Shown piece after piece: positions 5,361 to 43,096 of a DNA stretch of 44,026 nt. This stretch comes from Planctomycetota bacterium (GTDB taxonomy: Bacteria; Planctomycetota; Phycisphaerae; UBA1845), in contig JAJRWX010000079.1 of assembly GCA_024276605.1 (NCBI GenBank), positions 1 through 44,026 on the forward strand, read 5' to 3'. The stretch's first letter is position 1. Every line of letters begins with the position of its first letter. Both the position numbers and the translations under genes were made by a program. A model generated the notes under the pieces. That model was not told the origin of the DNA. It saw nothing but the letters and a program-made list of their open reading frames with translations, and ran no database searches.

Positions 5361-6062
5361 TTATGCAACAGGTTTGCGGCGTAGGGTTAGCCACATGACG
5401 GCGATGATGCCGCCGAGCAGGTTGAAACACAAATCGAGTAGCGTGTTTTGATAACCACCGACACCGGTTTCGGGAATGGTTTCTACGGCTATGAATTCAA
5501 TGATTTCGTTGATAGCCCCCAAACCGCTCCCCATGAGCACGACGAGAATCGCCAAGGGCCACCAGCGTTCCAATGGTTTATGCAGGTATGGTTGAAGTAA
5601 GTGGTGACACATTAGTGTCGCTACACCGAAGCCCAGTAGGTGGACGATTTGGTCATAGCGAAGAATGTGGTATCGTGGGAACAGGGAAAGTAAGTTTGCG
5701 CCGTACAACACGCCATCAGCCAGGCGGACATTGCCGCCGGCCATGTGCAACAGGCCCCATAGCGTCAAGCCCCACAAAATGAGAAGATCAAATTTGACGC
5801 TTCGCTGTTTCCACAAAATCCACAGCGCCGCAGCCATGACAACAACCGCGTACATGACAAACTCATAATTTGCGCGCTGCCAGGCGATCCATGTGAATAC
5901 GGTGATATACACGGCGTTGAAGATCACAACCGTGCGTTCGTGTTTGGTTAGCCACATAGGTATACGATGATAGCTGACAGAGATTTTGGCAAGTGTGTTG
6001 TTGACTGGTGCTTTGTCTACAACTGATTTGTTGCACGCCCCACGTCCCAAGATACATCGCAT
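5361..6062 (-). CDS. DUF2238 (YjdF-like) integral membrane protein
   Basis: This 233-aa membrane protein has about six hydrophobic spans (roughly residues 44-61, 67-84, 91-108, 136-152, 168-184 and 208-226). Motifs resembling the DUF2238/YjdF family are RYDQIVHLLGFG (135-146), the acidic NEIIEF (185-190) within a GSGLGAINEIIEF helix, and NTLLDLCFNLLG near the C-terminus. The biochemical role of the family is not established. Conserved His, Asp and Glu residues inside the membrane would suit ion or metal handling, but that is inference. The start at 6062 has GAGG five bases upstream. An internal Met at residue 36 would give the more usual family N-terminus but has no ribosome site. The gene lies between two traces of the structured repeat. 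Confidence 0.8.
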   Translation of the reverse strand: MRCILGRGACNKSVVDKAPVNNTLAKISVSYHRIPMWLTKHERTVVIFNAVYITVFTWIAWQRANYEFVMYAVVVMAAALWILWKQRSVKFDLLILWGLTLWGLLHMAGGNVRLADGVLYGANLLSLFPRYHILRYDQIVHLLGFGVATLMCHHLLQPYLHKPLERWWPLAILVVLMGSGLGAINEIIEFIAVETIPETGVGGYQNTLLDLCFNLLGGIIAVMWLTLRRKPVA

Positions 6063-6201: not shown

Positions 6202-9200
6202 TTACTTCTTGGAAAACCAACCTCGTTTTTTACTGGGTTTGTTGCCGGATGGCTGCCCTTTTTCTTTCTTCGCCTGCTTGATCAATGCTTCTATGGATTT
6301 ATTAGGTGTGAGTCTTTGCAACATTCTGACTTTTCGCGCTATTTCTGGTGCTAGATCGGCTGGCAATTCATTGAGTTTAGAAGTGCCGGTTTTTTTGTCT
6401 TTTTTATTTTCTTTTGCGGCGATAATACTTTCCCCCGTAAACTTTATGGGAATGTCAACCGATGCGGGCATTAGATCGCCGTAATCCGTATCGGTACCAG
6501 GTGCAGGTTGCTGGTCAACACCTTCGATCTCAGCCTGTGCCGCGATCAAGGCGGCCTGCAGCGCTGCTTTTTGATCAACTTCTTCTATGACGGGAGCCTT
6601 ACTGTCCGTCTCACTTGATTCGGTCACTTCCGGATGCACCTCGCTTGAAACATCTCCCTGGTTGCTTAGCTCATCGATCGCGGCTTGATCATTATTTGCA
6701 GTTATCTCTTCCGGGGCTTGCAATGTTGAAAAATCGAATGTACTCCAAAATGTCTCGATAGAAGCATGTATAGATGCATGATCATTCAGTTGCGAAGTTT
6801 CATTGATAACTGCGCGTTGAGATTCATGCTCGTTAACCGCTTGTTCGCGTTTTTCTAATTCGAGCATCATGGACTCAACATCAGCGCGATCCCCAGCTAC
6901 TTTTTCTCTCTCCTGCGCTAGCTCAGCCTGTGCGACGGATAATGCTTGTTGTACTTGATCCGTTTGCTCGTTGGCGCGTCCTTCCAATTGTTTCACTTGT
7001 TCGGCGTAGTCAGCTAGCTGTTTCTCGTGCGCCTGCTTTGCGATCTGTAAAGACTGCTTCTGTTCATTGAGTTCCTGTTGGGCCTGATCAACCGATTGTC
7101 TTTGAACTGTTATTTCTTGACTCGCCTTTTCGATACTTTGACGCTCAGTTTGCAATGCTTGACGTTGGTCTTGAATTTCTTGCTCAAGTTGTTGCCTTTT
7201 TTCATCGCTGGTTTTACTTTGCTCAGCCAGAGAGACGGTCTGTTCCTGCAAGGCGTTTTCACGATGCCGCAAATCAACCTGTCGTTGTTCAAGCTCTTTG
7301 CGTGTTGCGTCAAAAGAAGCTGCAAGTTGTTGTGCATCTTTGTCCGTCGCCGAAAGACAGTGCTCTTTTTCGTCGAGAATTTTGGCTCGCTCATCGGCAC
7401 GCTGTTGTTTGGACAACAATTCTTCCTGGACAGCAGCTAATGCTTGTTGCTTTTCTTTATATTCATTTTCAAGCGTCTGCTGTTTTTCCTGACTCAATGC
7501 AAACTGAGCTTGGAGTTGCTCTTCTTTGCGTTTTATCGCCTCAGCCAGTTCGCTTTGTTTTTGTTCGTGTTGCGCCTTTTGTTCGCTCAGCGCTGCTTCC
7601 TGACTATGCAACGTTTGTTCTTGCTGCTCTAGGGCTAGCTGTCGTTGCTCAAGCTCCTTACGCGTGGCATCAAAGGAGGCTTTGAGTCGATGGGTATCTT
7701 TGTCCGTAGCCGAAAGACAACGTTCTTTTTCGTCGAGAATTTTCGCCCGCTCATCAGCATGTTTTTGCTGCGCAGCCAATTCATCTTGTACTCGAGATAG
7801 TGCTTGTTGTTTTTCTGCTATCAGAGTTGCGGCTGATTGTTGTTCTTCTTGCCACGCCTGTTGTTGAGTACGTAGTTCATTTTCTTGACATTGAAGCTGC
7901 TGCTTTTCCTGCTCGATTTCCTGCCTTAACATTTCAGCTTGTTGCTGTTGTTCGTCCGTTTCGGCTTTCAGCTGCTGATATGCTTGGTCCAGTTGTTGTT
8001 GTTTATCCGTATATTCTTTTTCTTGTTGTGCAACGCAGAGTGCACGATCGTCCAACACTGTTTTTTTCTCTAACAACGCCTGACTATGCTGAGTCAACTC
8101 TGCCTGACGCTGTTTCAGCTGCGTATCCATCGCAGCCTGTTCCTGATCCTTCGTTTGGCTTCGCTTTAGCCACTGCTGAACCTCGACTTCATGCTTTTTC
8201 TGCTGCTCGCCAAAGTCATTGATCGCTTGATTCAACGTTTGTTGTCGCTCGTGAAGCGCGGATTCAGCGTCTTTTAAGGATGCCTGCCTGACAGATAGCA
8301 CACGATTATCTTCAATCAATTTTTTCTGAGTTTGCGCAAGGGCTGCCCCTCTAACATCCAACGCTTGTAGTTGTTTATCCAGTTCCTGTTGTTGGGATTG
8401 AATGTTGGTATTTTTTTGTGTTAGTTCATCTTCGAGTTGTTTAAGTTGTTCCTGCCGCTGGTTGCATCGTTGAGCAAACTCAGCTAGCTTATCTCGTTCT
8501 AATTCAAGTTCCTTGTTAGCCCGAACTACATTCTTTTCTTTCTTTTGCAACTCCTTTTCATTTGCAGTCAGCAACTGACTTTGCGTGGTCAATTCATCTT
8601 GCTTAATCTGCATCGCCTCTTCACTTTGACTCAACTGTCTGGCTCGTTGATTCAGCTCTTGCTGACTCTTGTCAAGTATAGCCTGCTGTGAAGCTAAGTT
8701 TTTTTCGTGTTTGGCTTGCGCTTTGGTAATCCCGGCGATTTCCTTGTCACGCTCGTCTAATTGTTGAGCGCGTAGTTGATGTTTTTCAACTTCTGATGCA
8801 AACTTTTCTTGCTGATTACAAAGCTTCTGTTCATCCTTTTCCAAACGCTTTGATTGCGAAGATAGTTCGCTGTCCAGTGCTGAGAGATTTTTTTCACGCT
8901 CGTCTATAGCGTTGAGTTGTTCTTTGATGCTTGCATCACGTACATCCAAAGATTGTTGCTGCTTTGCCAGCTTAACACGATCAGCTTCCAACTGTTGCTC
9001 GGCCTGCATTAACTTGGCCTGTGCACGCTTAAAGTTTTTCGTGGCCGATTCCAGGGTGTTTTGTTGAGCAGTAAAATCTTTTACGCGCCTATCTAACGCC
9101 GCGGCAGATTCCTCGATAGTCAGTTGGCGCTGATTAAGTCCATCTTCAGCCTTAGCAAGTTCACGCTGCAACTGGGATAACTTTTCGCTTAGCTGATCGA

Positions 9201-9423
9201 GTCGTTTTTCCTCGTCATGATTTTTTTCCACCTGACTTTTTGATTCAGATTGAAGTCGAGCAAATATTTCCTGCTGCTGGACTTCGCGCTGTTCATACGT
9301 GCGTAGCCAACTTTGAGCCCACCGATCAACTTTATCCGGGTAGTTGAGGAGACTGTCTTCTAGAGTTTGTACGGCTGAATCTACCGCTGCCACTGCTTTG
9401 TCGAGAGACTTTTTTTTCGGCAT
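6202..9423 (-). CDS. Giant Gln/Glu-rich coiled-coil protein with basic C-terminal tail
   Basis: The protein has 1073 aa. Residues 1-60 form a short helical head (…LEDSLLNYPDKVDRWAQSWLRTYEQRE). From about 60 to 880 it is one almost uninterrupted heptad-rich coiled coil dominated by Gln, Glu, Lys and Ala, with almost no Pro or Gly. An acidic Pro/Ser/Thr-containing linker follows (about 900-990). The protein ends in a compact helical piece (LPADLAPEIARKVRMLQRLTPNKSIEALIKQ) and a very basic tail. A 60-residue block around DERAKILDEKE occurs twice, 120 residues apart. There is no signal peptide, membrane span or ATPase head, so it is not an SMC protein; a cytoplasmic scaffold or filament is likely. 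It is divergent from the GTPase operon, whose first gene encodes a shorter protein of the same type. The ATG lacks a strong ribosome site. I do not recognise a named family. Confidence 0.85.
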   Translation of the reverse strand: MPKKKSLDKAVAAVDSAVQTLEDSLLNYPDKVDRWAQSWLRTYEQREVQQQEIFARLQSESKSQVEKNHDEEKRLDQLSEKLSQLQRELAKAEDGLNQRQLTIEESAAALDRRVKDFTAQQNTLESATKNFKRAQAKLMQAEQQLEADRVKLAKQQQSLDVRDASIKEQLNAIDEREKNLSALDSELSSQSKRLEKDEQKLCNQQEKFASEVEKHQLRAQQLDERDKEIAGITKAQAKHEKNLASQQAILDKSQQELNQRARQLSQSEEAMQIKQDELTTQSQLLTANEKELQKKEKNVVRANKELELERDKLAEFAQRCNQRQEQLKQLEDELTQKNTNIQSQQQELDKQLQALDVRGAALAQTQKKLIEDNRVLSVRQASLKDAESALHERQQTLNQAINDFGEQQKKHEVEVQQWLKRSQTKDQEQAAMDTQLKQRQAELTQHSQALLEKKTVLDDRALCVAQQEKEYTDKQQQLDQAYQQLKAETDEQQQQAEMLRQEIEQEKQQLQCQENELRTQQQAWQEEQQSAATLIAEKQQALSRVQDELAAQQKHADERAKILDEKERCLSATDKDTHRLKASFDATRKELEQRQLALEQQEQTLHSQEAALSEQKAQHEQKQSELAEAIKRKEEQLQAQFALSQEKQQTLENEYKEKQQALAAVQEELLSKQQRADERAKILDEKEHCLSATDKDAQQLAASFDATRKELEQRQVDLRHRENALQEQTVSLAEQSKTSDEKRQQLEQEIQDQRQALQTERQSIEKASQEITVQRQSVDQAQQELNEQKQSLQIAKQAHEKQLADYAEQVKQLEGRANEQTDQVQQALSVAQAELAQEREKVAGDRADVESMMLELEKREQAVNEHESQRAVINETSQLNDHASIHASIETFWSTFDFSTLQAPEEITANNDQAAIDELSNQGDVSSEVHPEVTESSETDSKAPVIEEVDQKAALQAALIAAQAEIEGVDQQPAPGTDTDYGDLMPASVDIPIKFTGESIIAAKENKKDKKTGTSKLNELPADLAPEIARKVRMLQRLTPNKSIEALIKQAKKEKGQPSGNKPSKKRGWFSKK
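7281..7816 (-). repeat. Internal direct duplication in the coiled-coil gene (two copies, 360-bp period)
   Basis: Positions 7281-7456 and 7641-7816 are clearly related, with long shared stretches such as CTTTTTCGTCGAGAATTTT. The offset is exactly 360 bp (120 codons), so the heptad phase and reading frame are kept. The copies encode residues of about 656-715 and 536-595. This points to growth of the coiled coil by recent tandem duplication. Confidence 0.8.
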
Positions 9424-9869
9424 GATGCGTGCAATCCGAATGTTGACTATAGCGCCTTTAACGGCACACCCACAGATATATGGAAGCAGCTAAAAATATC
9501 GAAACGTAGAGCTATTAGCCACGCCCCCTTACCCTCACATAGGCTCACACTAATGAGCACAACGCACATGACTTCAGTGTACATTTTGACCTACTTAACG
9601 ACTCTGATTAAAGCATATTCGGACCAGGTACGAATCGCGTGTGTACTCTTAACTCAGGCTGTACGCAGTGATGACGTTACCGGTCTTATCCAAATCATTT
9701 ACTCAACTGCATATTTTTAACCTCACCGCAGTCCGAACGTATCGTAGGCTTGGCTGTCGAGACATCATTTGCATTGGTTATTCTTATGATGGCCATGCAT
9801 TGAACCGTCGGGCGAATAAGCCAGAAACGGTAACGCGTTAGGTACGGTAATACATAGTCCTATGTATAG
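9424..9869. other. Divergent intergenic region between the two coiled-coil genes
   Basis: This 446-bp spacer has no convincing gene. It must carry the promoters for the minus-strand coiled-coil gene and the plus-strand operon. A TTGACC string lies near 9589, but I see no good -10 partner. Apart from the inverted repeat at 9850-9867, no other structure stood out. Confidence 0.5.
9850..9867 (+). promoter_or_regulatory. Inverted repeat just upstream of the operon's first start codon
   Basis: ATACATAG-TC-CTATGTAT is a perfect 8-bp-arm palindrome ending two bases before the TTG start at 9870 and about 14 bases before an alternative GTG at 9882. It could be a repressor operator or an RNA hairpin that masks the translation start of the first operon gene. 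No regulator gene is adjacent. Confidence 0.4.
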
Positions 9870-10715
9870 TTGAACGGCGACGTGGATAAACAAAAGCAGA
9901 CAAATTGCACAGCAAATATCCCGGATTCGCAAGAATTACGGTCTATGACCACGCACGCCCTCGATGCGCTGCGGGCTGCACAGACGCAGCTCCATGAACA
10001 AATTGAAACCTTGGATGCCCAGCGCGACCAAATAGACGCCGACCAAAATCAACTTGAAACTGAAAGCGCTACTATTCGAGAAGCCCAGGCGAAACTTGAA
10101 GCAGAGTCTGAACGATTGGAAACTCTCACTCTTTCGTTACAGAACCAAAAAAAGAAAATGGACGCCTCCCTCGCAGACTTATCCACCCAACATCAAGCAT
10201 TGGACAATCGCGTACATGAGTTTGAAAAGATTAAAAAGCAATGGGAAACCGAACGTGCCAACCATACACAGGCCGTCAAATTGTATGAGAAAAGAGAACG
10301 TGAGCTGACAGAGGCCGAGCAAGAGCTTAATCAACTTGCGACGGAAATCGAACCCAGACAGCATGCGCTAGACAAACGCGAGAAAGTGTTGGAAAAACGT
10401 GCCAATAAACTAGAAGCGTTGGCTAGTGAGCTGGACGATCGTCGCGAAATGCTCGTCACGATGCAATCAGAATTAGAATCCAGCCAGCAGATGGTAGCCT
10501 CTCAACGTGAAGAGTTGCTCACTAGGTTAGGTTCCATACATCAAGCACCTACAAGCAGTATGTCGGTAGCGAAAACAACATCTCACAAGGAACACGTGGA
10601 TGATTTAGAGGAAATACACACACCTCCAGCAAAACCAAAGTCTGCAGTAAGTGCAGCCGCAGATCAATTTAGGAAATTGCGGCGTGATGCAAAGCGGCGC
10701 GCCATCGGGGCATGA
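9870..10715 (+). CDS. Coiled-coil protein, first gene of the GTPase operon
   Basis: This 281-aa protein is almost wholly coiled coil from about residue 27 to 215 (HALDALRAAQTQLHEQIETLDAQRDQ… then …KREKVLEKRANKLEALASELD). A Ser/Thr/Pro-containing linker and a short basic helix follow (AADQFRKLRRDAKRRAIGA). Architecture and composition match the 1073-aa protein on the other strand: a long helix with a basic tail. The two may co-assemble, but that is inference. The start is uncertain: TTG at 9870, GTG at 9882, or ATG at 9945 (MTTHALDAL), none with a clear ribosome site. The next gene follows after 53 bp. It has no catalytic motif, signal peptide or membrane span, and I do not recognise a family. 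Confidence 0.78.
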   Translation: MNGDVDKQKQTNCTANIPDSQELRSMTTHALDALRAAQTQLHEQIETLDAQRDQIDADQNQLETESATIREAQAKLEAESERLETLTLSLQNQKKKMDASLADLSTQHQALDNRVHEFEKIKKQWETERANHTQAVKLYEKRERELTEAEQELNQLATEIEPRQHALDKREKVLEKRANKLEALASELDDRREMLVTMQSELESSQQMVASQREELLTRLGSIHQAPTSSMSVAKTTSHKEHVDDLEEIHTPPAKPKSAVSAAADQFRKLRRDAKRRAIGA

Positions 10716-10768
10716 TCTAGAGACGAATGACAGCACGTTATTGACGCAGTTCTTCAGGGGACACAACC

Positions 10769-11818
10769 ATGGCTTTGAGTTTATTTGCACGTACAAAGAA
10801 TTGGACAAACAAAACAACCAAGCGAACGGCCATGAAAAGCCGCAAGTCAATGCCTGAACCCACGCAAAGGCCATTTGTCCCTGCGCCACAAAAATCTTTG
10901 AATGGCGACGGCGCTAAGTGCTTATTGGAACAGGGACGCTATGCGGTACTTCTGCGGGATGCACATCATTGGAAAACGCAACCTGACGGCCAAGATGCCA
11001 TTCAGGCAGCTAATCTGAAGCTTGAACGACGTATGGCCTTGGTTCCAGCGGGAACCATCAGCTTACCGACTACGCTCAGCGCACAGCCAGGGGAAACTGA
11101 AACAGATGTTGAGGTACAGCCGTTTCTGCTAGACGTTAACGCTGTCACAAATGCACGTTTTCAAGATTTTGTTGATGATGATGGATATGACGAACTGGAC
11201 TATTGGCCGGAAGAAATATGGCCTCACTTAATCGAATTTAAGGACATGACAGGCGAGCCGGCACCGCGGTTCTGGCAACAAGGTCGTCACGATGCCAACC
11301 TAGCGGATCATCCGGTCGTTGGTATTAGCTGGTACGAAGCACAGGCTTTTTCGCTTTGGATCGGACAGCGCTTACCCACGGAAACTGAATGGCAGATGTC
11401 GGCTTGCTGGCATATTAACAGTTCAGCCGACATCATGCGACGCTTTCCTTGGGGTGATGCTATGGATAATCAACGTTGCAACATTTGGTCCTCGAAGCAT
11501 GGTCAAACCGTTCCAGTCGATCAATACACACGAGGTGCTGCGCCGAACCAAGTGTTACAGCTCGTCGGAAATACTTGGGAATGGACGGACGCAGAATATC
11601 AAATTTCGGATGAACAAGGTCGCCCCGTACTTGGCGAAATGCCCATGCAAAGCATCCGTGGGGGTGCATTCGACACCTATTTTGAGTCCCAATCTACCGC
11701 ATTATTTAGAACAGGACAGATCGCCTTAGCGCGCACGCCGAATATCGGTTTCCGTTGTGCGATGGATTTATCTCAGGCGGCGTGGCTAACTGATGATTCT
11801 GATGAGATAGGAGAATAG
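10769..11818 (+). CDS. FGE-like (SUMF1/formylglycine-generating-enzyme fold) protein without catalytic cysteines
   Basis: This 349-aa protein has a basic, disordered N-terminus (1-60), a helical stretch, and then an FGE-sulfatase domain from about residue 88 to 335. Motifs are LVPAGTISLP, FLLDVNAVTNARFQDFV, HPVVGISWYEAQAFSLWIGQRLPTETEW, FPWGD, QLVGNTWEWTD, SIRGGAFD and NIGFRC. The fold is known from enzymes that oxidise a sulfatase Cys to formylglycine and from relatives such as EgtB. Here the region after GGAF, where true FGE has two copper-binding cysteines, contains none, so formylglycine synthesis is unlikely and a structural or ligand-binding role is more probable. CAGGGGAC lies before the ATG. 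Three bases separate its stop from the GTPase gene, indicating co-transcription and probably a shared complex. Confidence 0.88.
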   Translation: MALSLFARTKNWTNKTTKRTAMKSRKSMPEPTQRPFVPAPQKSLNGDGAKCLLEQGRYAVLLRDAHHWKTQPDGQDAIQAANLKLERRMALVPAGTISLPTTLSAQPGETETDVEVQPFLLDVNAVTNARFQDFVDDDGYDELDYWPEEIWPHLIEFKDMTGEPAPRFWQQGRHDANLADHPVVGISWYEAQAFSLWIGQRLPTETEWQMSACWHINSSADIMRRFPWGDAMDNQRCNIWSSKHGQTVPVDQYTRGAAPNQVLQLVGNTWEWTDAEYQISDEQGRPVLGEMPMQSIRGGAFDTYFESQSTALFRTGQIALARTPNIGFRCAMDLSQAAWLTDDSDEIGE

Positions 11819-11821
11819 ACC

Positions 11822-12706
11822 GTGGCAGCAATAGATGCGCAAACCATGCCGGCGACGTTGCCGTGCCTTATTTGTGAAACGAAAAACCCAAGCGAAGCGG
11901 TAGTGTGTAGCGAATGCTGCGCGCCGATGGCTTTAATCCACGATGCACTGGCGCAAGATCGTGATCCCTGTATCGTCACGGTGATCGGCGAAAGTAATGT
12001 CGGAAAGACCGTCTACCTTGGCATGTTGCTGGACATGTTGGCCAAACGGGCGGACGATTTCGAGGCCATTCCCAAAGGGGCTTACTCGGTTAACTTGCAA
12101 CATACCGTCGTTAGCTATCTTAGCGCGCGTCAGTTTCCTCCCAAGACCGCTATGGAAGCAGACCTATGGCAATGGGCGTATTATCAGGTACGTCGAAACG
12201 ACGAGTACTCGATGATATACGACCTCGTCATGCCGGACATGGCTGGCGAGGCGATCGCGGCGGAGGTGTCGTCACCGCAAACATTCAAAGTCATTAGATC
12301 ACTTCTCGAAAAGAGTAGAGGTGCGATACTGATGGTGGATGCGGCTATGGCTGGTGTTGGATCACCTCAACCTGATTTTTTTGCACTGAAACTCATGAGC
12401 TACATCGACGGCGTGGTGGCATCTGCACCAAACGAACGGATCAGTTCGCCGGTGGCCATTGTGTTGTCCAAGTCGGATTATACACCGGAGGCGTTTGATA
12501 ATCCGCGGGCCTTTGCAAAAACCAATTTGAATCGACTTTGGAATATATGCGAAAGTCGTTTTGAACATTTCGAGTTCTTCGCCACCAGTGTTGTCGGGAG
12601 CTTAGCATTTGGTAGTGATGAATATGATAATGTCATCCCTTATCCTCTTCATGTCGCACCGCGCGGCATTATCGAACCGATCGATTGGGTACTGTCCAGG
12701 CTTTAA
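11822..12706 (+). CDS. Zinc-ribbon P-loop GTPase (double-GTPase/TRAFAC-like)
   Basis: The protein has 294 aa and starts at GTG. The N-terminus is a zinc ribbon with Cys15-x2-Cys18 and Cys29-x2-Cys32. A GTPase core follows: Walker A GESNVGKT (residues 56-63), a switch-II-like DMAGE, a hydrophobic strand AILMVDAAM, and VLSKSD in the place of the guanine-specificity NKxD motif. This layout resembles the DO-GTPase2 group described in GTPase-based conflict systems (recalled, not searched), and the next gene looks like their GAP1 partner. The protein has no membrane span. It is probably the switch of the operon, with nucleotide state controlling the FGE-like, coiled-coil and GAP1-like partners. Spacing is 3 bp upstream and 29 bp downstream. 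Confidence 0.82.
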   Translation: MAAIDAQTMPATLPCLICETKNPSEAVVCSECCAPMALIHDALAQDRDPCIVTVIGESNVGKTVYLGMLLDMLAKRADDFEAIPKGAYSVNLQHTVVSYLSARQFPPKTAMEADLWQWAYYQVRRNDEYSMIYDLVMPDMAGEAIAAEVSSPQTFKVIRSLLEKSRGAILMVDAAMAGVGSPQPDFFALKLMSYIDGVVASAPNERISSPVAIVLSKSDYTPEAFDNPRAFAKTNLNRLWNICESRFEHFEFFATSVVGSLAFGSDEYDNVIPYPLHVAPRGIIEPIDWVLSRL

Positions 12707-12735
12707 CGGTTCGTATTACACAAGGGGAAGCCGTG

Positions 12736-14169
12736 ATGGCACAGACCACGTTAGTATGCGAGCAGGCTATTTTCACGTCTATCCGCACGCCCATGGGCGA
12801 GGGCTATCGGATTATCGCAGCCAGCAAAGGTATTAACCCTAAAGATCAACAGATGATCACACAGCGTAGTCCATCACACGATGGACTTTGTGCGCCTGAA
12901 AAAAATGATGCCTCCGAATCCTATATACCTCTGGCGGTCTCATTTTATCAACTGCCGAGTGGCCAATTGTGTGTGGCAATATCTTGTTTTGCCGGTGCGG
13001 AGCACACCGGTCGAGGTGGGCAACGAATTTATACGCACTGCGCGGTCTTTCCATCAGATCAGTTTAAGGCGTGTGCTTTTAATCCCTTCAACATTGCTCA
13101 AGCCATGGTAGAAGCAGACCTGACAACACCCACACTCAAACCCAAGCCTCAGCTCGAACCCTTGTCTCTGCAAGTCAACACGGCACCTACGACACTTGAT
13201 GACTCTTGCGTAGCAACTCTATCCAACAACAACGCATATATGATAGCCATTGATCGTCTACTCTGTGATAAGGCGATCATCGTAAATTTGGATAACGACT
13301 GGCTTGTCGCTACGGAAGCCATCATGATGAGTCTTCCAGGGCCGATGCGTGAGCGCGTATCCTTCGGAGCCGGAATTCGCTATTCCACTGGCCGTCACTT
13401 TAACTTGAATATGTTGTCGGACGAAACAGGTGTGAGCAAATCGCGCAGTGCCGGACAATCGATCGAATACTTTTCTACCGCAGAAGAGACCGCATCCATT
13501 CCCAAAAACCCATGGCTCAATTTTATCGAACGCATGTGGAAAAAAAAGGCCTTTGAAGTCTTAGCTAAGCGAACCGCCCCAGACTTTAGCAACACCAGTG
13601 AAGAAGGTCGCGCACTCATCGCCAATCTATACGATTCAACCGATTGTCTTGCAGAAACCGAAGCTATCGATATATTAAAAAGCATTCAAAGAACGGCTAA
13701 TATATCTGTTACCGGTGTGGAGGCTCAACTACTGGAAGCATTGCTAGATAGCGCTGCTAGCACGTTGTGCCTGCGATTAAATCAATCGTCCTGGACGCAA
13801 TGCCATCCATACTGGTCCCAACTGATGGACCTAGCGCGAGCGTCCGAGATGTATCGAAAATTTTCCTTCCAATTGATCCCACTCGCTTTACATGCCGCAA
13901 CGAAGGAAAACATACCTCAAGCATTTACATTGGCTTTGCAGGTTGAGCGATTGATCAAAAATCAAGGCAGTCCCGAAGGAGGACACCATGCATGCGTCGC
14001 AATGGTGCTCGAACAGACGAGGGCTTGGCTAGCCGGCGGCGGAGGTGAAAACATTGGGCAAATTCATGGGCTGTGCGATGAATGGAAAACGCTATGTCCT
14101 GCTATGCCTATCATTGAGGAAATCGCATCGCTGTGCCGAGAAAAACTAGCTTCAACCACTTTCCAGTAA
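12736..14169 (+). CDS. GAP1-N2-like GTPase-associated protein
   Basis: With the ATG at 12736, preceded by AGGGGAA, the protein has 477 aa. A TTG at 12685 would overlap the GTPase gene and is less likely. The N-terminal third resembles the GAP1-N2 domain of GTPase-associated systems: EQAIFTS, the phrase GYRIIAASKGI, an SFYQLPSG.CVAISCFAG strand pair, then GRGGQRIYTHCAVF. The middle has PMRERVSFGAGIRYS, like the GAP1 middle region. The C-terminal half (about 270-477) is all-helical and unassigned. In described systems GAP1 proteins are encoded beside a double GTPase and are thought to work with it; the biochemical activity is unproven. It is the last gene of the operon and argE follows after 154 bp. 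The assignment is by pattern memory, so the family is likely but not certain. Confidence 0.75.
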   Translation: MAQTTLVCEQAIFTSIRTPMGEGYRIIAASKGINPKDQQMITQRSPSHDGLCAPEKNDASESYIPLAVSFYQLPSGQLCVAISCFAGAEHTGRGGQRIYTHCAVFPSDQFKACAFNPFNIAQAMVEADLTTPTLKPKPQLEPLSLQVNTAPTTLDDSCVATLSNNNAYMIAIDRLLCDKAIIVNLDNDWLVATEAIMMSLPGPMRERVSFGAGIRYSTGRHFNLNMLSDETGVSKSRSAGQSIEYFSTAEETASIPKNPWLNFIERMWKKKAFEVLAKRTAPDFSNTSEEGRALIANLYDSTDCLAETEAIDILKSIQRTANISVTGVEAQLLEALLDSAASTLCLRLNQSSWTQCHPYWSQLMDLARASEMYRKFSFQLIPLALHAATKENIPQAFTLALQVERLIKNQGSPEGGHHACVAMVLEQTRAWLAGGGGENIGQIHGLCDEWKTLCPAMPIIEEIASLCREKLASTTFQ

Positions 14170-17371: not shown

Positions 17372-19405
17372 ATGCAGCTGCTCAGCATGCGCAGGATCGC
17401 CATATCCATTCTTGTTATTCTCTCTTTGACAACAATTGAGTGTGTTATACGCACTATTGGCGGCGCGTATGGGTCTAGCCAGGTGGCTTTCGAGGTTTTT
17501 CTGGTAGCCGTGTACGCCTCGGTATTGATGGGGCTGATCGCATCGTTGTGCAGCCTGTTCGATAGTGGTTTACCCCATCAACACGACAAACGTCCGTGTA
17601 TCGCTCGCTGCGCTTTGGCAATATACGTAGCCATGCTCTTGCTTGGGCACGGTAACTTTCTTCATACACTGACCTCGTTGCGAGGACTATTCACCACGTT
17701 TATGGGTATAGCTGCGGCATGTGCAATTGGGATAATCATCGTTCGCATGTTGCGCAACATAACTTGGCTGGAAAACCACCGCGTATGGATCAAATTAAAC
17801 GTAGCAGCCCTATCGTCATTATCGATCATCGTTGCACTAACCATCTCTACTGGATGGCCAATGACTGTCGGCCTAGTGATCGGTGTTTCAAGCGTGGGAT
17901 CGATAGTCTATTCGATGGTGACTTCGCAGCGTCGCAGCAGTAGCGTAAACTTAGTTATATACCTCGCAAGCATTTGTAGCTTGGGTTTAATGGCGTACGT
18001 AAAAACTCCACGTCATAGCCAAACTAAGGAAGACTTACCTAATATCCTGCTCGTCACGATAGACACCCTTCGCGCTGATCACGTTGGATGTTATGGATAT
18101 GAATCCGGTTCCACGCCCACTCTCGATGCCATTGCTGATTCGGGCTGTCTATTTGAGGATGCTGTATCAAATGCCGTAGTTACGGGTCCATCTCATATGA
18201 CGATACTGTCTGGACTACTACCCTCACAACACGGCTCAATGCGTAATGGTATCAAATTCCCCTCAACCTTGCCCAACTTGGCATACGTTCTATCAACGCA
18301 GGGGTATCGCACGGCAGCTTTTGTGAGTGGATGGACGCTTAATGATGCCATGTCCGGTCTCGCCTCCCACTTTGACTATTACGACGACGATCTAAGTCGC
18401 GTGACGTGGATACGCGATGAAGCGTTCGACTTGCAACCCATCCGTTTTCTTGCCCATATAAGTCGAGGCCTGGGAAAAGAATGGCACGGTAATGACCGCC
18501 CCGCCGGCGCTACCAATGACAGGTTGTTCGACTGGCTTAACCGCAACAGCGATGCACCTTTTTTTGTCTGGGTGCATTACTTTGACCCACATCTACCCTA
18601 TGAGGCGCCAGCTCCGTATGATCGTATGCACGATCCAAACTACGAAGGACCAGCCAATGGTCTTTGGTACAAACTCGGGGCCTCTCAACGTTCCGCCATC
18701 GCAACCAATCCGCGCCATATGAAACACATGCTAGCCTTATACGATGGTGAGATTTCGTACGCCGATAAACAGCTAGGGCATGTTCTTGAATATCTGAGAA
18801 AAAGAAAACTTGATGAACAACTGCTGCTAGCGGTCACGTCTGATCATGGTGAGAGTATGGGCGAACACGACATCTTCTACGGACGACGGCTTTATGAACC
18901 ATCGCTACGCGTTCCGTTAATCATGCAATTTCCCGGTCTCAGCCTTGCAGCAAGTAGAGTTAGTCGGCAAGTCAGTCTGGTAGATATTGCACCGACCATT
19001 CTTGATGCGCTTGGTGTTAAGGATACACCACCGATGACCGGACGAAGTCTTATCCCTTTAATGCGTAACGACGAGACCGCCCTCGACATCCCCACCATCG
19101 CCACACGCGTCTCGCATGAGGGCAAGCCCTATGCCCACTGGTCTGTGAGGCAATCCGGCAAAAAGCTTATCTGGCATTCCAGTAAATGGGTCAATTTCCT
19201 CTATCAGCCGGAAACCGTATTATTATATGATTTACGTGCAGACCCCGACGAGCTTCTCGACCTAGCTGAAACCCAAGAAGACATACTGCTCCCACTCATG
19301 CAAACACTTCAATCTTTTCGTATGGCCCCCATTCAACAAGGGCGACAAAGTAACCTAAAGGAAGACATTGAACGCCTCAAAGCGCTGGGATATGTTGGCG
19401 ATTAG
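17372..19405 (+). CDS. Membrane-anchored sulfatase-fold hydrolase/transferase with Thr nucleophile position
   Basis: This 677-aa protein has several hydrophobic spans in residues 8-210 (about 8-28, 40-62, 80-98, 108-128, 145-160, 164-182, 192-210), then a periplasmic alkaline-phosphatase/sulfatase-fold domain. PNILLVTIDTLRADHVG gives metal ligand Asp231. The active-site string is VTGPSHMTILSG, with Thr271 where true sulfatases have the Cys that becomes formylglycine (C-x-P-S-R). SDHGESMGEH supplies the later metal ligands. A Thr nucleophile is known in phosphoethanolamine and phosphoglycerol transferases, so an envelope-modifying phosphotransferase is as likely as a sulfatase. The start at 17372 is followed by a second ATG at 17387; neither has a strong ribosome site. 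The tRNA-Leu lies beyond its stop on the other strand. Confidence 0.85.
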   Translation: MQLLSMRRIAISILVILSLTTIECVIRTIGGAYGSSQVAFEVFLVAVYASVLMGLIASLCSLFDSGLPHQHDKRPCIARCALAIYVAMLLLGHGNFLHTLTSLRGLFTTFMGIAAACAIGIIIVRMLRNITWLENHRVWIKLNVAALSSLSIIVALTISTGWPMTVGLVIGVSSVGSIVYSMVTSQRRSSSVNLVIYLASICSLGLMAYVKTPRHSQTKEDLPNILLVTIDTLRADHVGCYGYESGSTPTLDAIADSGCLFEDAVSNAVVTGPSHMTILSGLLPSQHGSMRNGIKFPSTLPNLAYVLSTQGYRTAAFVSGWTLNDAMSGLASHFDYYDDDLSRVTWIRDEAFDLQPIRFLAHISRGLGKEWHGNDRPAGATNDRLFDWLNRNSDAPFFVWVHYFDPHLPYEAPAPYDRMHDPNYEGPANGLWYKLGASQRSAIATNPRHMKHMLALYDGEISYADKQLGHVLEYLRKRKLDEQLLLAVTSDHGESMGEHDIFYGRRLYEPSLRVPLIMQFPGLSLAASRVSRQVSLVDIAPTILDALGVKDTPPMTGRSLIPLMRNDETALDIPTIATRVSHEGKPYAHWSVRQSGKKLIWHSSKWVNFLYQPETVLLYDLRADPDELLDLAETQEDILLPLMQTLQSFRMAPIQQGRQSNLKEDIERLKALGYVGD

Positions 19406-26745: not shown

Positions 26746-27801
26746 ATGCGAACGGATGCTGTTTTCATCGATAAATCCTTTCCTTCGACCAGGTACCAAG
26801 GCAGTAAACGAAAAATAGCCCAACGTATCGTTTTAGAATTAAGCGATCTCGATTACCTTAGCGTACTCGACGCATTCGGAGGGACAGCCGCGGTCTCTTA
26901 CGCTTTCAAACTTGCCGGGAAACACGTCACGTATAATGACACATTACAATTTAATCAGCAGATTGGTCTTGCGCTGATTGAAAACGACACAACTACGCTG
27001 GACGATATAACCGTAGCTCATATTGGTATGCGTCAAAGCCATATCACCTACGGCCACATGATCCAAAAACTCTTTCACGATATTTATTATACTGATGAAG
27101 AAAATCAGTGGTTGGATGTCGCCGTGGGTAACATCCGTTCGATCAAAAACCGATACCTCCAAGCCCTGGCGTGGTTTTCATTATTTCAAGCCGCCATGAG
27201 CAAAAGGCCATACAATCTTTTTCACCGCCGTAATTTGTATATGCGTACATCCAAAGTCGAAAGATCCTTCGGTAACAAAACAACATGGGACCGCAGTTTT
27301 CAGGATCATTTCATAAAATTTGCACGGCAAGCGAACGCTGCTGTTTTCGACGGCGGAAACACTTGCGTAGCTCGCCATCAAGATGCGTTAGACTTCGAAC
27401 CCAGCGCGACGGATTTGGTCTATATTGATCCCCCTTACGTTGGCGCTACAGGCCACAGCGTAGACTATCTCGCTTTCTATCATTTCCTCGAAGGTATCAT
27501 GCAATACGACCAATGGCCAAGTATGATCGATCACCGCTCTAAACATCGTCGATTAGCAGCCGTCGATAATAAATGGTGCAGCAAAAAGACAAACCACATG
27601 ATGTTTCGTCAGATTATCGAACACTATGCAACGTGCATCCTAGCTGTTTCGTATCGAAGCGATGGGATACCATCCATCGAAGAACTGGTTGCCATGCTAA
27701 AGCAATTCAAAGCAAATGTGCGGGTTATCGACATCTCACGTTACCAATATGCCCTCTCAAATTGCAGAAATAGTAGAGAGATGCTAATTGTCGCACATTA
27801 A
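26746..27801 (+). CDS. D12-class N6-adenine DNA methyltransferase (orphan)
   Basis: This 351-aa S-adenosylmethionine-dependent enzyme is of the Dam/D12 type. The motif order is X-I-IV: RYQGSKRKI (residues 16-24), the SAM-binding DAFGGTAAVSYAFK (42-55), and the catalytic DPPY at 228-231. Between them is a variable target-recognition region that includes HRRNLYMRT. The C-terminus has ILAVSYRSDGIPS, which resembles motif VI onward. It would methylate the N6 of adenine in a short site that cannot be read from sequence. No restriction endonuclease is adjacent, so it is either an orphan regulatory methyltransferase or a relic of a restriction-modification unit. It starts 8 bp after pyrG, an odd partner. 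There is no visible ribosome site, so it may be translated by coupling. Confidence 0.9.
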   Translation: MRTDAVFIDKSFPSTRYQGSKRKIAQRIVLELSDLDYLSVLDAFGGTAAVSYAFKLAGKHVTYNDTLQFNQQIGLALIENDTTTLDDITVAHIGMRQSHITYGHMIQKLFHDIYYTDEENQWLDVAVGNIRSIKNRYLQALAWFSLFQAAMSKRPYNLFHRRNLYMRTSKVERSFGNKTTWDRSFQDHFIKFARQANAAVFDGGNTCVARHQDALDFEPSATDLVYIDPPYVGATGHSVDYLAFYHFLEGIMQYDQWPSMIDHRSKHRRLAAVDNKWCSKKTNHMMFRQIIEHYATCILAVSYRSDGIPSIEELVAMLKQFKANVRVIDISRYQYALSNCRNSREMLIVAH

Positions 27802-28164
27802 CGTCGATAAAGGTCCGATTAGCTCATCGATTGTTACAGCCCCAGGACGATCAAGAATAAATACAGTATCACCGTATTAATACATACAAATAAACTGTTG
27901 CAATTGCACAACCGATGAATCAATATCGAGCGCCGGCCGGTAGTCCTATGCGACTTTTACCTATTGGGTTGGTTATTGTCAGGAGCACGTAATCCTGGCT
28001 ATAGGCGGGCAACTTGCGCTGTATCGAGGTGCGTCAATTGTGATACCAGCGAGTCCTGACGTATGACTGAGACATTAGTCAGTATATGTCACCCTGGTTT
28101 GAGGAGGTACGCTTCGGCGTACTAGGGAAAGAAATGGGCAAGTAACTTGGTTTGGGAGGAAGGA
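27802..28164 (+). other. 5' region of the HDOD-GGDEF gene
   Basis: This 363-bp stretch has no convincing gene. It contains the hairpin at 28107-28122 and a strong ribosome site GGGAGGAAGGA just before the ATG at 28165. I compared it by eye with cyclic-di-GMP riboswitch motifs and saw no match. Confidence 0.5.
28107..28122 (+). promoter_or_regulatory. UUCG-capped hairpin in the leader of the HDOD-GGDEF gene
   Basis: GTACGC-TTCG-GCGTAC forms a perfect 6-bp stem with a stable UUCG tetraloop about 42 bases before the start codon. It may shape the 5' leader or mark a processed or attenuated transcript. No T-run follows, so it is not a classic terminator. Confidence 0.4.
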
Positions 28165-29661
28165 ATGAATTCAGATCTTTTGGAGAAAATCGAGGGTTCA
28201 CCGAGGTTGCCGACACCACCGGCGGTTGTGATGAGGTTGTTGGACCTTACCCAGAATGAAAATACAACGGTTCAAGAGTTAGCAGATACCATTGCGCTGG
28301 ACCCTGCGCTGACCTCCAAGGTGCTTCGCTTTGTGAATTCTCCTATTTCCGGCGTTACCCGAACCGTGACTTCCCTACCCCATGCCGTAGCTATGCTGGG
28401 GGTGCGTGCTGTTAAGTTACTGGCGCTGTCCTTATCGTTTTTGTCACCACGACGTGACTGTAATTGCCAGGGATTCGACACAGAATCCTTCACCATGCAA
28501 TCAGCTATATGCGCTATTGCTTCTCGTAAGCTGGCCGACATCACAAAAACGGAGTCTCCACAGGAAGCTTTTTTAGCTGGTTTATTAAGCCAAATCGGTC
28601 GGCTGATGATCGCCATGACTGTTCCCAAGGAATATGAGGCTGTACTTGCACGATCGACCCAGGCTCCATCGGATTTAGCCCTCATCGAGCAAGACATACT
28701 TGGTTTCAACTATACAGACATCGGTGCTCGCGTACTGCGCCGGTGGCGATTGCCTATGGCTACATGCGATGCTATCGCGCAATACCGACAGTCGAACACA
28801 CAACCACCAAAGATGCCGTTAGGAAAAATTCTGATTGCCGGGGAATCTTTGGCTACGCTGCTTTGTCCGTCTGCCAATCAAACTCCGCTCGACAGCGACA
28901 CCTATGTTCACACAATGAAGAATCTGTTCGACATGGATCACGATCAGGCTTCACAATGTCTATCGCTCATTGCCGCCGAAGCGGATGAAATGCGTCACAC
29001 GTTGTCATTGCCATCCGATAGTCTTCGATCTCTTGAAGAGCTTGACTACGCAATGAAAGAGCGCGTAGCTGAGCTTAGCATGGCTGTGCATATAGAACAT
29101 CAGGAAATGGCGGAAAATCAGGAGGAGTTGATGCGACGCGCCACGACCGATGCACTTACAGGTATCGCCAATCGAGCCGCTTTCGATGCGCGTATGTCAT
29201 TGGAATTAGAACGCGTCGCGCGGTCGGGTGAAACATTTGGCTTGCTCATGATCGATGTCGATCATTTCAAATCGTTCAACGATACGTATGGCCATCAAGC
29301 CGGCGATCGCGTGCTGAAGGAGGTAGGCAAAATCCTCGATGATAACGCTCGCAAAGTAGACTATGTGGCGCGATACGGAGGTGAAGAGTTTGCCGTCATC
29401 GCCCCAGATACGCCGTCGAATGGGCTGTTGTTATTGGCAGAACGACTTCGTCAAGCCGTGGAAAGTTTACATATTCCATGGCAGGGTGATCCACTAAAAG
29501 TGACGATCAGCGTTGGTGTAGCTGTGGTTGAGGAAATTGTGACTACGGAATCCACCGCAGCCATCATCAAAGTTGCCGACGATCAGCTATACCAAGCCAA
29601 AGCTAGCGGTCGAAATTGCGTACGAAGCCATAACTGCAAGGCAGCAGCCCTATGTGGGTAA
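28165..29661 (+). CDS. HDOD-GGDEF signalling protein (probable diguanylate cyclase)
   Basis: This 498-aa cytoplasmic protein has two domains. The N-terminal HDOD domain (about 10-210) has LPTPPAVVMRLLDL, IALDPALTSKVLRFVNSP, SLPHAVAMLGVRAVKLLALS and LLSQIGRLM; HDOD domains are signalling modules related to HD phosphohydrolases but lacking the metal site. A helical linker leads to a GGDEF domain (about 330-490) with DALTGIANRAAFD, MIDVDHFKSFNDTYGHQAGD and catalytic GGEEF at 405-409. RKVD at 396-399 is a proper inhibitory I-site for cyclic-di-GMP feedback. It probably makes c-di-GMP under HDOD control; its input is unknown. The ATG at 28165 has a strong ribosome site GGGAGGAAGGA. It is monocistronic with a long leader. 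Confidence 0.93.
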   Translation: MNSDLLEKIEGSPRLPTPPAVVMRLLDLTQNENTTVQELADTIALDPALTSKVLRFVNSPISGVTRTVTSLPHAVAMLGVRAVKLLALSLSFLSPRRDCNCQGFDTESFTMQSAICAIASRKLADITKTESPQEAFLAGLLSQIGRLMIAMTVPKEYEAVLARSTQAPSDLALIEQDILGFNYTDIGARVLRRWRLPMATCDAIAQYRQSNTQPPKMPLGKILIAGESLATLLCPSANQTPLDSDTYVHTMKNLFDMDHDQASQCLSLIAAEADEMRHTLSLPSDSLRSLEELDYAMKERVAELSMAVHIEHQEMAENQEELMRRATTDALTGIANRAAFDARMSLELERVARSGETFGLLMIDVDHFKSFNDTYGHQAGDRVLKEVGKILDDNARKVDYVARYGGEEFAVIAPDTPSNGLLLLAERLRQAVESLHIPWQGDPLKVTISVGVAVVEEIVTTESTAAIIKVADDQLYQAKASGRNCVRSHNCKAAALCG

Positions 29662-37250: not shown

Positions 37251-40200
37251 CTACGGACAAGGCACAGGACAGCCTGTCAAACTATAGGGATCCAGTTGGA
37301 ATGCCTTGACGACGAACAGAATATCAGTCGCGTTGATGATACCGTTAGGTTCGCATGGCATAATATCGAATGCCTCAAATGGGAAACCCGGTGAAAAATC
37401 AAGCTGAAACGCTAGCACAGTAACTAGAATATCCTCTGAATTCACTATCCCATCGGCGGTTACATCCCCCCAATTTGGCATATCTACCGTACCCGCTGAC
37501 GACGTAAACGACCCGCACACGGCTTGAACATCATATGAACTACCCGGCCCAGGCACAATTTCAATGCCCTGTACAATGATAGAATCCCAGGTAGCCGGCA
37601 ATTGTGTCACAGGTGTGTCAACGAGGGAACCACCTGCATCAATAAATTTATCGAGGCAAGTCCAATCCGTCGAAGTCAATCGAAGGGCTACCGGAGCCAC
37701 CGAACCGGCAGGTAAAGGCGTCACGCGGAACGCCCGTGGGCCGATGGGTTCCACAAGCGGCGCTTGCGGTATCGCAGTTCCCGCGCACGCTCCTTGATTG
37801 CATGTATCATTTTCAGTGCATACATCGGTGTCATCACATGCGGCCCCGGTAGTTACGAAGTTATTGTCACATGCCCCTACCCCATCGCAGATGTCAGCGT
37901 TATCGCATTGGTCCGTACTCGGATCACCACATGCCGTCCCTGCTATCTCAAAATTGGATAGACATACGCCGACGCTGTCACAGGTATCCGGGTTATCACA
38001 TTGTGTACTCGCGGGATCGCCACAAGGAAAACCTGGCGTCTGGAAATTGTCCAAACAAACACCCACACCGTCGCACGTATCGGGATCGTTACAATCGGTA
38101 TTCGCTGGATCGCCACAAGCAAAACCCGTCACCTCAAAATTACTGTCGCAGACGCCTGCCCCACTGCAAGTATCGGGGTTGTCGCAATCCGTATCCGACG
38201 GATCACCGCAGGCTGTCCCGCTCAACGTGAAATTTGATAAGCAGGTGGAATTGCCATCACAAGTATCGGGGTTATCACATTGCGTATTGGTAGGATCACC
38301 ACAAGGGAAGCCGGCAATTCTTGGCGGATGCACACACACACCAGTGGCACACAAGTCCAACGTACATTCATTCCCTTCATCCGTGCAAGAGACGCCATCA
38401 GCCTGATGGTTTGGATCACACAAGCCAACCCCATCACACACATCAGCGTTGTCACAATCGGAAGTACTGGGGTCGCCACAAGCCAACCCAGCCGGTTCAA
38501 AATTATCTAAGCATGCACCACTACCATCGCACGTATCGGGATTGTTGCATTGCGTGTTCGAGGGGTCACCACATGGGAAACCGTTAATTTCAAGATTCGC
38601 CAAACAGCTACCACCGCCATCGCACGTATCTGGATTATCACACCCGGTATCCGTAGGACTTCCACAAAGCATTCCGACAGGTTCAAAGTTGGATAGACAT
38701 GTACCCGCCCCGTCGCAACTATCGGGATTATTACAATCTGTATTCGTCGAGTCGCCGCATACCGTACCCGACAATTCAAAATTAGACACGCATACACTAT
38801 TACCATCACACGTGTCGGGATTGTCGCATTGGGTATTGGAACCATCGCCGCATAGTGCGCCCGCTGGTGTAGAGGGATGCTGGCACACGCCTACACTGCA
38901 CAGGTCAAGCGTACATTCGTTGCCATCATCAGTACAAATCAGGCCATCGGGCTGATGGTTAACATCGCACGCCCCTAACCCATCACACACATCTGCGTTA
39001 TCACAATCAGAAGTCGTCGGATCACCACATGGAACACCTACGGGAACAAAATTCGTACGACACAGACCTGCACCATCACACGTGTCAGCGTTGTCGCATT
39101 CCGTAGTCAACGGATCACCACATGCCGTACCAACAGGCCTGTCCGGATGCGTACAAACACCACTAAAACAAACATCATCCGTACAGTCGTTGGCATCATC
39201 CGTGCATAATTCACCATTTGATTTATGATTAACTTCACAAACACCCAGACCATTACAGGTATCGGGTGCGTCACAATCCGTATTAGTAATATCACCACAC
39301 AAAACCCCCGCTGACTGCGAAGACCAATTGGTACTCGACAACAGTGGGATACAAACTTCGCAGTCATTAGCTGGGTTCGCCTGGCCTGGCGAATAGCAAA
39401 CGCCCCCGATAACGCAACCATCCACCGTCGAAATATTCAAGACCGTATCACCCACATTATCCATAAAACCGGCGATACGGATAAGATATGTTTGACTATC
39501 TACGGCATTAAAAACCAGCGAGGAGAGCAACCCTGCACCGTTATCATCATCACAGGCGATTTCCGCACCACCGCAGGCGCCGTAAACTGTCAATACCGTG
39601 TCATTATACGGCAGCAACACACTACCGTTGGTGTTCATCACAACAGGCCCGGTGCATGTAGCCACATAGAAAAACCAGATGTCATTGTTGGAATCAAATT
39701 GGCAAGTGGCTTCGTCGTCGTCAGGACCGCGATTTTGGTTGTTGCTATTATTAGTACCGTCAAAAACTTCTACAGCATTTATACAATCGTCGTTACACGT
39801 GGGATCGATCGTTCCCACACACGTTCCCGTGGCGTCGCAGGCATCTACACCAATGCCTACTCCACCAGTCCCCGTACAAGGATCTCCATCGTCACATAGC
39901 GTACCAACCGCTACAGTGTCCCAAGCATTAGGCAATATAGCCGCTGAGCACACTTGGCAACTATTAGCCGGGTTGATTTGTCCATCTGCATAGCAAACAC
40001 CTGCTATGAGACAAAATCCCGCCTGGAGAATATTGTCGCATTGGGCCAGCGCTTCATTGCAACTATCCACAGTACACGTCAGACCGTCGTCGCAATCTGT
40101 GGTCGATGCACCACCACACGCTCCGCCCACACACGTCGCGCCGGCATTACAAAATGATCCATCATCACAATTGGTACCATCAGCCATGTTGTTGGTCAGA

Positions 40201-42464: not shown

Positions 42465-43096
42465 GGCTTCTCCTCCCGCTCCATTCAGACACACAGGCTT
42501 TTTTCACAGCATCCCCACTTGGTGCGCAATCAACACGACCATACGCAGCCATCACAAATAGCCAGTGTACCAACAGTCGGTAACTGACTCAACGATTATT
42601 TACTTAAATATGGAGTATTCGCTTACTAACGTAACGATGGAGCAAATTGTGCTATCGAAAATCGCAAGATCATGGATTAAGGTATTTAAGATAGGTAGAT
42701 TCATCACGGACTCCTAACAAAATCGGGGGGCGAATTCCATCCGCGATTTACTTTATGAAAGATAACTTTGTTTATGATCCAATCTTAGGACCAACATCCA
42801 TCAGCATTCATCAAAACGATGCTATATTGGTTTTACCGCAAATCAGTACAGTTTTCCCCAGGATCCTCACAAAAAGCTGCACATATCCATTAAGATTTAA
42901 GCCTCAAAGCTTGTGCATCGACGTAACATAAACCTCCTGAAATTAGGTGTTTTTAACACCTCAATCAAGAAATTCACATCCAATCGCCCTTAATTAGCAT
43001 ACAGACCAGAATTCCCTAGTAGAAAAGTTGTCATCTGCGTACAATAATATGGAGGAGTCGAGGGTACCCCGACACAATAGGGAGGCGTGCGTACCG
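42465..43096. other. Intergenic region between divergent genes
   Basis: This AT-rich spacer of about 630 bp lies between the giant secreted protein (minus) and the unrecognised gene at 43097 (plus). I see no coding frame with supporting signals. It should contain two divergent promoters. A small AGGTGTT-TTT-AACACCT hairpin lies at 42945-42961. Confidence 0.5.
42945..42961. promoter_or_regulatory. Small inverted repeat in the divergent spacer
   Basis: AGGTGTT (42945-42951) and AACACCT (42955-42961) are a perfect 7-bp inverted repeat around TTT. It is a candidate operator or leader hairpin about 135 bp before the gene at 43097. Function is unknown. Confidence 0.3.

Follow-up and report, generated by a model that had tools for sequence, protein, structure and literature searches.

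A stable, vertically inherited DO-GTPase/GAP1-N2 module with two coiled-coil partners in planctomycete bacteria

Systems that pair a DO-GTPase with a GAP1-N2 protein, including planctomycete ones with FGE-fold proteins, were described by Kaur et al. 2020 (PMC7159879). In the present study we analysed a five-gene module built on such a pair, which lies on a 44,026-nucleotide stretch of DNA (contig JAJRWX010000079.1 of assembly GCA_024276605.1; hereafter the window) from a Planctomycetota bacterium (Phycisphaerae; UBA1845). Four of its genes form a plus-strand operon in the order CC2 (coiled coil), FGE-like, zinc-ribbon GTPase and GAP1, with intergenic gaps of 53, 3 and 29 bp, while the fifth, CC1, encodes a 1073-aa coiled-coil protein and is divergent from the operon, on the minus strand. 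The open reading frame (ORF) coordinates agree with this layout, which had been proposed in an earlier reading of the DNA made from its letters and translations (the sequence-only reading). That reading had also linked the cluster to GTPase-GAP1 conflict systems predicted from genome context, and the protein families indeed match those of Kaur et al.

As in these systems, the DO-GTPase of the module has an N-terminal zinc ribbon and is encoded directly upstream of GAP1-N2, and an FGE/FGS fold has been reported in some of the planctomycete ones. In contrast, the module has one zinc ribbon (two are usual) and no variable effectors, and no FNIII (fn3) match was obtained among the window genes scanned or the conserved partners (the scan covered the window genes). 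It differs further in its two coiled-coil genes with conserved tails and in its vertical, single-copy inheritance. The MglA-MglB(-RomR) system (PMC6785124) also joins a bacterial Ras-like GTPase to a dedicated partner protein; in the present module, however, the GTPase is a DO-GTPase with a zinc ribbon, the partner is predicted to be longin-DENN-like and not Roadblock, and coiled coils and an FGE-fold protein are added. Longin and Roadblock domains are related (PMC3521125), and no Pfam match to an MglA-type GTPase or to Roadblock was obtained for the GTPase or GAP1. With the eukaryotic DENN modules (DENND1A/B, DENND10 and FLCN/FNIP; Rab or Rag), which a 2012 DENN survey (PMC3521125) places in eukaryotes, the locus shares a predicted longin-then-DENN-like order in GAP1 and a Ras-like GTPase partner, although the likeness is by predicted fold (Z ~8) and not by sequence. 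Golgin-type tethers (PMC4707255) have in common with CC1 a long coiled coil and a conserved C-terminus, here accompanied by a small GTPase module; this is an analogy only.

Of 40 genomes from the genus, family and order of the window, its own included, 31 had the GTPase. In the order, 73/110 genomes carry the module, and in the window's family 45 of 47 do; it is single-copy in all but one carrier, which has two copies. Comparison of 34 non-redundant loci, mostly from draft metagenome assemblies, revealed that the adjacency and order of FGE, GTPase and GAP1 are kept in every one of them, which is far beyond chance. CC2, recognised by its tail (Q)FRKLRRDAKRRAIG, lies directly upstream of FGE in 31/34 loci (contig ends cut two of the remaining three), and the C-terminal domain of CC1 was matched by a profile in 25 of the loci and recognised by visual reading in another 3. 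The sequence-only reading had made its proposal depend on profile matches for the GTPase or GAP1 and on a neighbourhood shared with related genomes, and both were found.

The identity of the GTPase follows that of RecA (rho 0.92 within the family, n=20, and 0.73 overall, n=28 genomes), and the gene is under strong purifying selection, with a dN/dS ratio (nonsynonymous to synonymous substitution rates) of about 0.02 within the genus, a value that is rough because dS is near saturation. The distance matrices of the GTPase, FGE and GAP1 correlate with each other (Mantel r 0.73-0.79), and these proteins are therefore co-inherited; evolution is faster in GAP1 and the coiled coils than in the GTPase. 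Single copy, RecA-like divergence, low dN/dS and correlated distances are the pattern of a vertically inherited core gene set, and the module is thus stable and vertically inherited among planctomycete bacteria. The genes around it are shared less widely: TruD is a common neighbour in the genus only, and M20 and FTCD lie downstream in some members of the family.

The Pfam search of 11822-12706 confirmed that the zinc-ribbon protein with GESNVGKT is a DO-GTPase, as the sequence-only reading had held (DO-GTPase1, 2.5e-13; DO-GTPase2, 4.4e-10; PF19975 50.3 bits and PF19993 40 bits, cut-offs 27). Across 32 orthologues, GESNVGKT and the single CxxC...CxxC zinc ribbon show little or no variation, and the AlphaFold2 model (mean predicted local distance difference test score, pLDDT, 83.8) has Rap1/Ras as its best structural matches (Z 13.7). 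The FGE-sulfatase profile matched 10769-11818 above cut-off (3.2e-36). Both catalytic cysteines of FGE are missing in 31/31 aligned sequences, whose rows read RGGA(F/Y)DT.F..Q, with DTYF...Q in place of the cysteine pair, and the EgtB/OvoA sulfoxide synthase families remained under their cut-offs (EgtB 104.6 bits against 360). Judged by its sequence, the protein looks like an inactive enzyme fold that has lost the catalytic pair of FGE. It had earlier been called Cys-less: the FGE fold stands, whereas C237 and C330 are present and only the catalytic pair is absent. A Sulfatase-family gene (17372-19405) lies a few kb from this gene, which is probably a coincidence.

For GAP1, the suspected GAP1-N2 domain was recovered above cut-off at 12736-14169 (3.5e-15), and PF20013 was found in 32/32 orthologues. 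No Pfam match to GAP1-M or GAP1-C was obtained; the AlphaFold2 model (mean pLDDT 92.4) nonetheless shows more domains beyond N2. The closest solved structure to residues 3-300 is TagF (E 9.3e-4, Z 8.3, 247 residues aligned, nearly the whole of TagF), alongside a chain of the FLCN-FNIP2 complex (E 2.1e-3) and DENND1A, DENND1B and DENND10 (Z 8.2, 237-249 aligned). The first 150 residues match longin domains (Z 7.5-8.6), including GATOR1 chains (probably Nprl2), and residues 300-477 form helical repeats in the model. Among the VIA matches listed, all of those confined to the N-terminal region are TagF, a DENN/longin protein or a GATOR1 chain. It is this uniform class of matches that gives strength to the suggestion, from fold only, that the N-terminal part of GAP1 is longin-DENN-like and resembles eukaryotic GTPase regulators as well as TagF of the type VI secretion system (T6SS); because Z is about 8, the assignment is no more than suggestive. 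Roadblock/MglB is not among the structural matches listed, an absence that excludes nothing. Homology between GAP1 and TagF at the sequence level was looked for and not found (hhalign probability 0.1, no TagF_N match in any GAP1 sequence), and, unlike TagF, GAP1 has no T6SS context. A conserved loop, AG.EHTGRGG.R, with invariant R93 and R97, is placed between two strands in the model and is a candidate for an arginine finger.

The two coiled-coil genes of the sequence-only reading were borne out by significant heptad periodicity, with a period of 3.52 for CC1 (power 28.1 against 11.0 at the 99th percentile of shuffles) and of 3.49 for CC2 (27.1 against 8.1). Profile searches with either protein gave no family apart from coiled-coil noise. 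In an alignment of 23 sequences, the portion of CC1 kept across the order is its C-terminal domain, and a profile made from the long CC1 C-termini of the window's family picked out a single open frame at each locus of other families. CC1 is long and divergently encoded in most of the window's family. In the other families, as well as in at least one genus (L036) of the window's family, it is short, and its gene opens the operon and shares its strand. The frames bearing the domain range from 162 to 1,670 aa across module-bearing genomes. Self-comparison of the CC1 protein gave nothing, while a DNA repeat search revealed a 210-nt duplication, which suggests how the coil may lengthen. The N-terminus of CC1 was also tried as an order-wide conserved end and rejected, as matches to it were confined to 13 loci, all from the window's family, and did not include the short forms.

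The C-terminal domain of CC1 proved not to be specific for the module. Its profile matches 91/110 genomes of the order, some of which have no module, and it is present on coiled-coil proteins, some with one or two FHA domains, in 22 genomes of the order in which the GTPase was not found (a few of them being incomplete drafts); none of 11 such loci had relatives of CC2, FGE, the GTPase or GAP1 alongside. CC1 is therefore the module's representative of a wider family. The module's own CC1 in locus L035 carries two FHA domains. A stand-alone coiled-coil family of Phycisphaerae with a CC1-type end (..LRRLTGGRKSD.ELL...KKRWW), some members having FHA, was noted in GTPase-less genomes or loci (L131-L140, e.g. 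L133:2873-4573 and L138:2355-4466).

The scaffold half of the sequence-only reading is better supported than its conflict half, and a scaffold is plausible. We put at about one in two the probability that the module serves cell organisation as a scaffold or tether switched by GTP, i.e. an order-level housekeeping module built on the DO-GTPase/GAP1-N2 pair. The GTPase would act as the switch, its nucleotide state being set by GAP1 either as a GTPase-activating protein (possibly via R93 or R97) or as a guanine nucleotide exchange factor, with the FGE-fold protein as a binding adaptor. Whether CC1 and CC2 assemble or dock would depend on the GTP state; their conserved tails may anchor them to the partner proteins or to a membrane, and the CC1 coil would be a spacer of freely variable length. 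The module would provide a switchable scaffold or tether (polarity or surface assembly), and not a variable immune effector. Several observations weigh against this proposal: (i) a third of the order lacks the module, (ii) the CC1 C-terminal domain is not exclusive to it and occurs without it, (iii) the structural matches of GAP1 at Z ~8 are suggestive at most, and comparison with 20 TagF proteins gave no sequence similarity, and (iv) GAP1 and the coils are fast-evolving, which is compatible also with an arms race. A more novel reading, which we hold to be a long shot, sees here a bacterial counterpart of Rab-DENN-golgin, in which a Ras-like GTPase, a longin-DENN-type regulator and a coiled-coil tether of variable length with a conserved end organise the interior of the planctomycete cell.

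A conflict system, the other half of the sequence-only reading, would be of the type described by Kaur et al., with GAP1 and the coils sensing or trapping an invader, the GTPase setting the threshold and the FGE-fold protein acting as effector. The core families match by Pfam, that work mentions FGE-fold effectors in GAP1-N2 systems of planctomycetes, and the faster evolution of GAP1 and the coils relative to the GTPase points the same way. Nevertheless, the same core gene set recurs in all 34 loci, so that the highly variable effector modules expected between relatives were not seen, and there is no FNIII protein among the scanned window genes. The single copy, near-universal presence in the family, RecA-like conservation and strong purifying selection also argue against it, as do the housekeeping neighbours and the lack of known defence genes nearby: PADLOC (2023 library) gave only weak coiled-coil matches in the module, and no match among the other window genes tested. 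Hence the conflict reading draws support from family membership, fails on variability, copy number and context, and is not supported; we regard it as rather unlikely.

Outside the order, relatives of the GTPase were found in four families, two more of the same class and two from other parts of the phylum, and in three loci a coiled coil with a CC2-like tail precedes FGE-GTPase-GAP1. In general, GAP1-N2 proteins have a patchy distribution across the phylum, occurring in 22 of 294 sampled genomes; those other than the module's are scattered across Planctomycetota (L062-L087), many in open frames of 700-1100 aa. In one genome from a different part of the phylum (G582), the module forms the downstream end of a same-strand cluster encoding CheW, a methyl-accepting chemotaxis protein, CheA fused to a response regulator (RR), RR-DUF4388, an FHA-coiled-coil protein, CC2, FGE, the GTPase and GAP1 (L105:7577-12469, L108:456-7124). 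This suggests that chemosensory input can drive the GTPase switch in that lineage. Moreover, in two genera of family f93 fliM is convergent with GAP1 and directly downstream of it (L102:9370-10401, by Pfam; L104:5738-6874, by eye). These arrangements would fit a chemosensory or motility polarity switch like MglA-MglB-RomR, in which a Che-type pathway acts via the GTPase to place a coiled-coil landmark. The survey of the order weakened this candidate: the presence of the module was not associated with that of FliM (Fisher p=1.0) and was linked only weakly to that of CheW (p=0.08), the identified flanking genes are unrelated housekeeping genes, and five module-bearing genomes lack both CheW and FliM (G004, 98% complete; G208, 94%; the other three incomplete). 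As a general explanation it is improbable, although it may be true for some lineages. A role in controlling how a membrane machine is assembled, comparable to the post-translational T6SS pathway of TagF and FHA proteins, appears very remote: TagF is the nearest solved structure to GAP1, it works by binding an FHA protein (PMC5995506), and FHA domains occur on L035 CC1 and on CC1-like proteins, but neither a TagF_N match (in the window's genome or any GAP1 sequence), nor GAP1-TagF profile-profile similarity, nor secretion-system genes within the window were recognised.

The features of the module are collected in Table 1. ORF starts were picked by position. The start of GAP1 (ATG 12736) agrees with that of its relatives, the TTG at 12685 of the program-made ORF list being unused, and the TTG at 9870 of CC2 is kept at the same position in two congeners. 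The other scanned genes of the window are mostly housekeeping ones (acetyl-CoA synthetase, KDO transferase, TruD, M20 peptidase, FTCD, CTP synthase etc.). A DUF2238 membrane protein gene (5361-6062) adjoins CC1, and was found in the same place in one congener (L021) and not in another (L022). Farther away are a D12-class adenine DNA methyltransferase gene (26746-27801), located between CTP synthase and a gene for an HDOD-GGDEF fusion protein (28147-29661) and with no restriction partner among the scanned neighbours, and a 1747-aa open frame on the minus strand (37251-42494) with no match in Pfam or PADLOC.

Table 1. Positions of the module's genes and of their distinguishing parts within the window
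Feature	Position	Strand	Basis
CC1, heptad coiled coil, 1073 aa	6202..9423	-	ORF, periodicity, conserved C-terminus
CC1 C-terminal domain (LDPE..K.R.LRRL.P.KS..ELL ... KKRGWFSKK)	6205..6384	-	alignment of 23 sequences and profile matches
Direct repeat within the CC1 coil, 2 x 210 nt, 73% identity, 360 nt apart	7247..7816	-	DNA repeat search
Divergent intergenic region, 446 bp, presumed promoters for CC1 and the operon	9424..9869	.	gene coordinates
CC2, 281-aa coiled coil, operon gene 1, TTG start	9870..10715	+	ORF, periodicity, tail profile
CC2 basic tail QFRKLRRDAKRRAIGA, almost invariant among relatives	10665..10712	+	comparison; similar tails in other classes
FGE-fold protein (PF03781) without catalytic Cys pair; short basic/aromatic N-terminus MAL.LF.R.K	10769..11818	+	Pfam, alignment
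Zinc-ribbon Ras-like GTPase, DO-GTPase family	11822..12706	+	Pfam, alignment, AlphaFold2 model, structural matches
GTPase P-loop GESNVGKT, residues 56-63	11987..12010	+	orthologue alignment
GTPase G3 motif DMAGE, residues 139-143	12236..12250	+	D139, A141, G142 and E143 invariant; residue 140 nearly so
GAP1, GAP1-N2 domain protein	12736..14169	+	Pfam, alignment, AlphaFold2 model
GAP1 residues 3-300, predicted longin-DENN-like fold; candidate Arg-finger loop EHTGRGGQR	12742..13635	+	R93, R97 invariant; AlphaFold2 model, structural matches
GAP1 C-terminal helical-repeat domain; reduced or absent in the order's other families	13636..14166	+	alignment, AlphaFold2 model

The five-part combination had been proposed as possibly undescribed, and we found no paper on the full set; DO-GTPase, GAP1-N2 and an FGE fold together in planctomycetes are, however, already in PMC7159879. 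The literature searched (outside subscription papers, preprints and the source data of Kaur et al.) contained no mention of the coiled-coil partners and their tails, of the vertical pattern or of the DENN-like prediction. What is new is therefore the pair of coiled-coil partners with conserved tails and an inheritance unlike that of a conflict system, while the GTPase-GAP1-FGE combination is known. DO-GTPase/GAP1 systems have so far had a predicted role only, in biological conflict, and a core-gene-like version in an order of bacteria is an argument for a role of one branch or more in ordinary cell biology. The module offers a defined five-protein system that is open to testing. If the longin-DENN-like fold of GAP1 proves correct, bacteria would possess a relative of a regulator fold that is mainly known from membrane trafficking in eukaryotes, paired with a Ras-like GTPase in a phylum noted for its unusual cell organisation.

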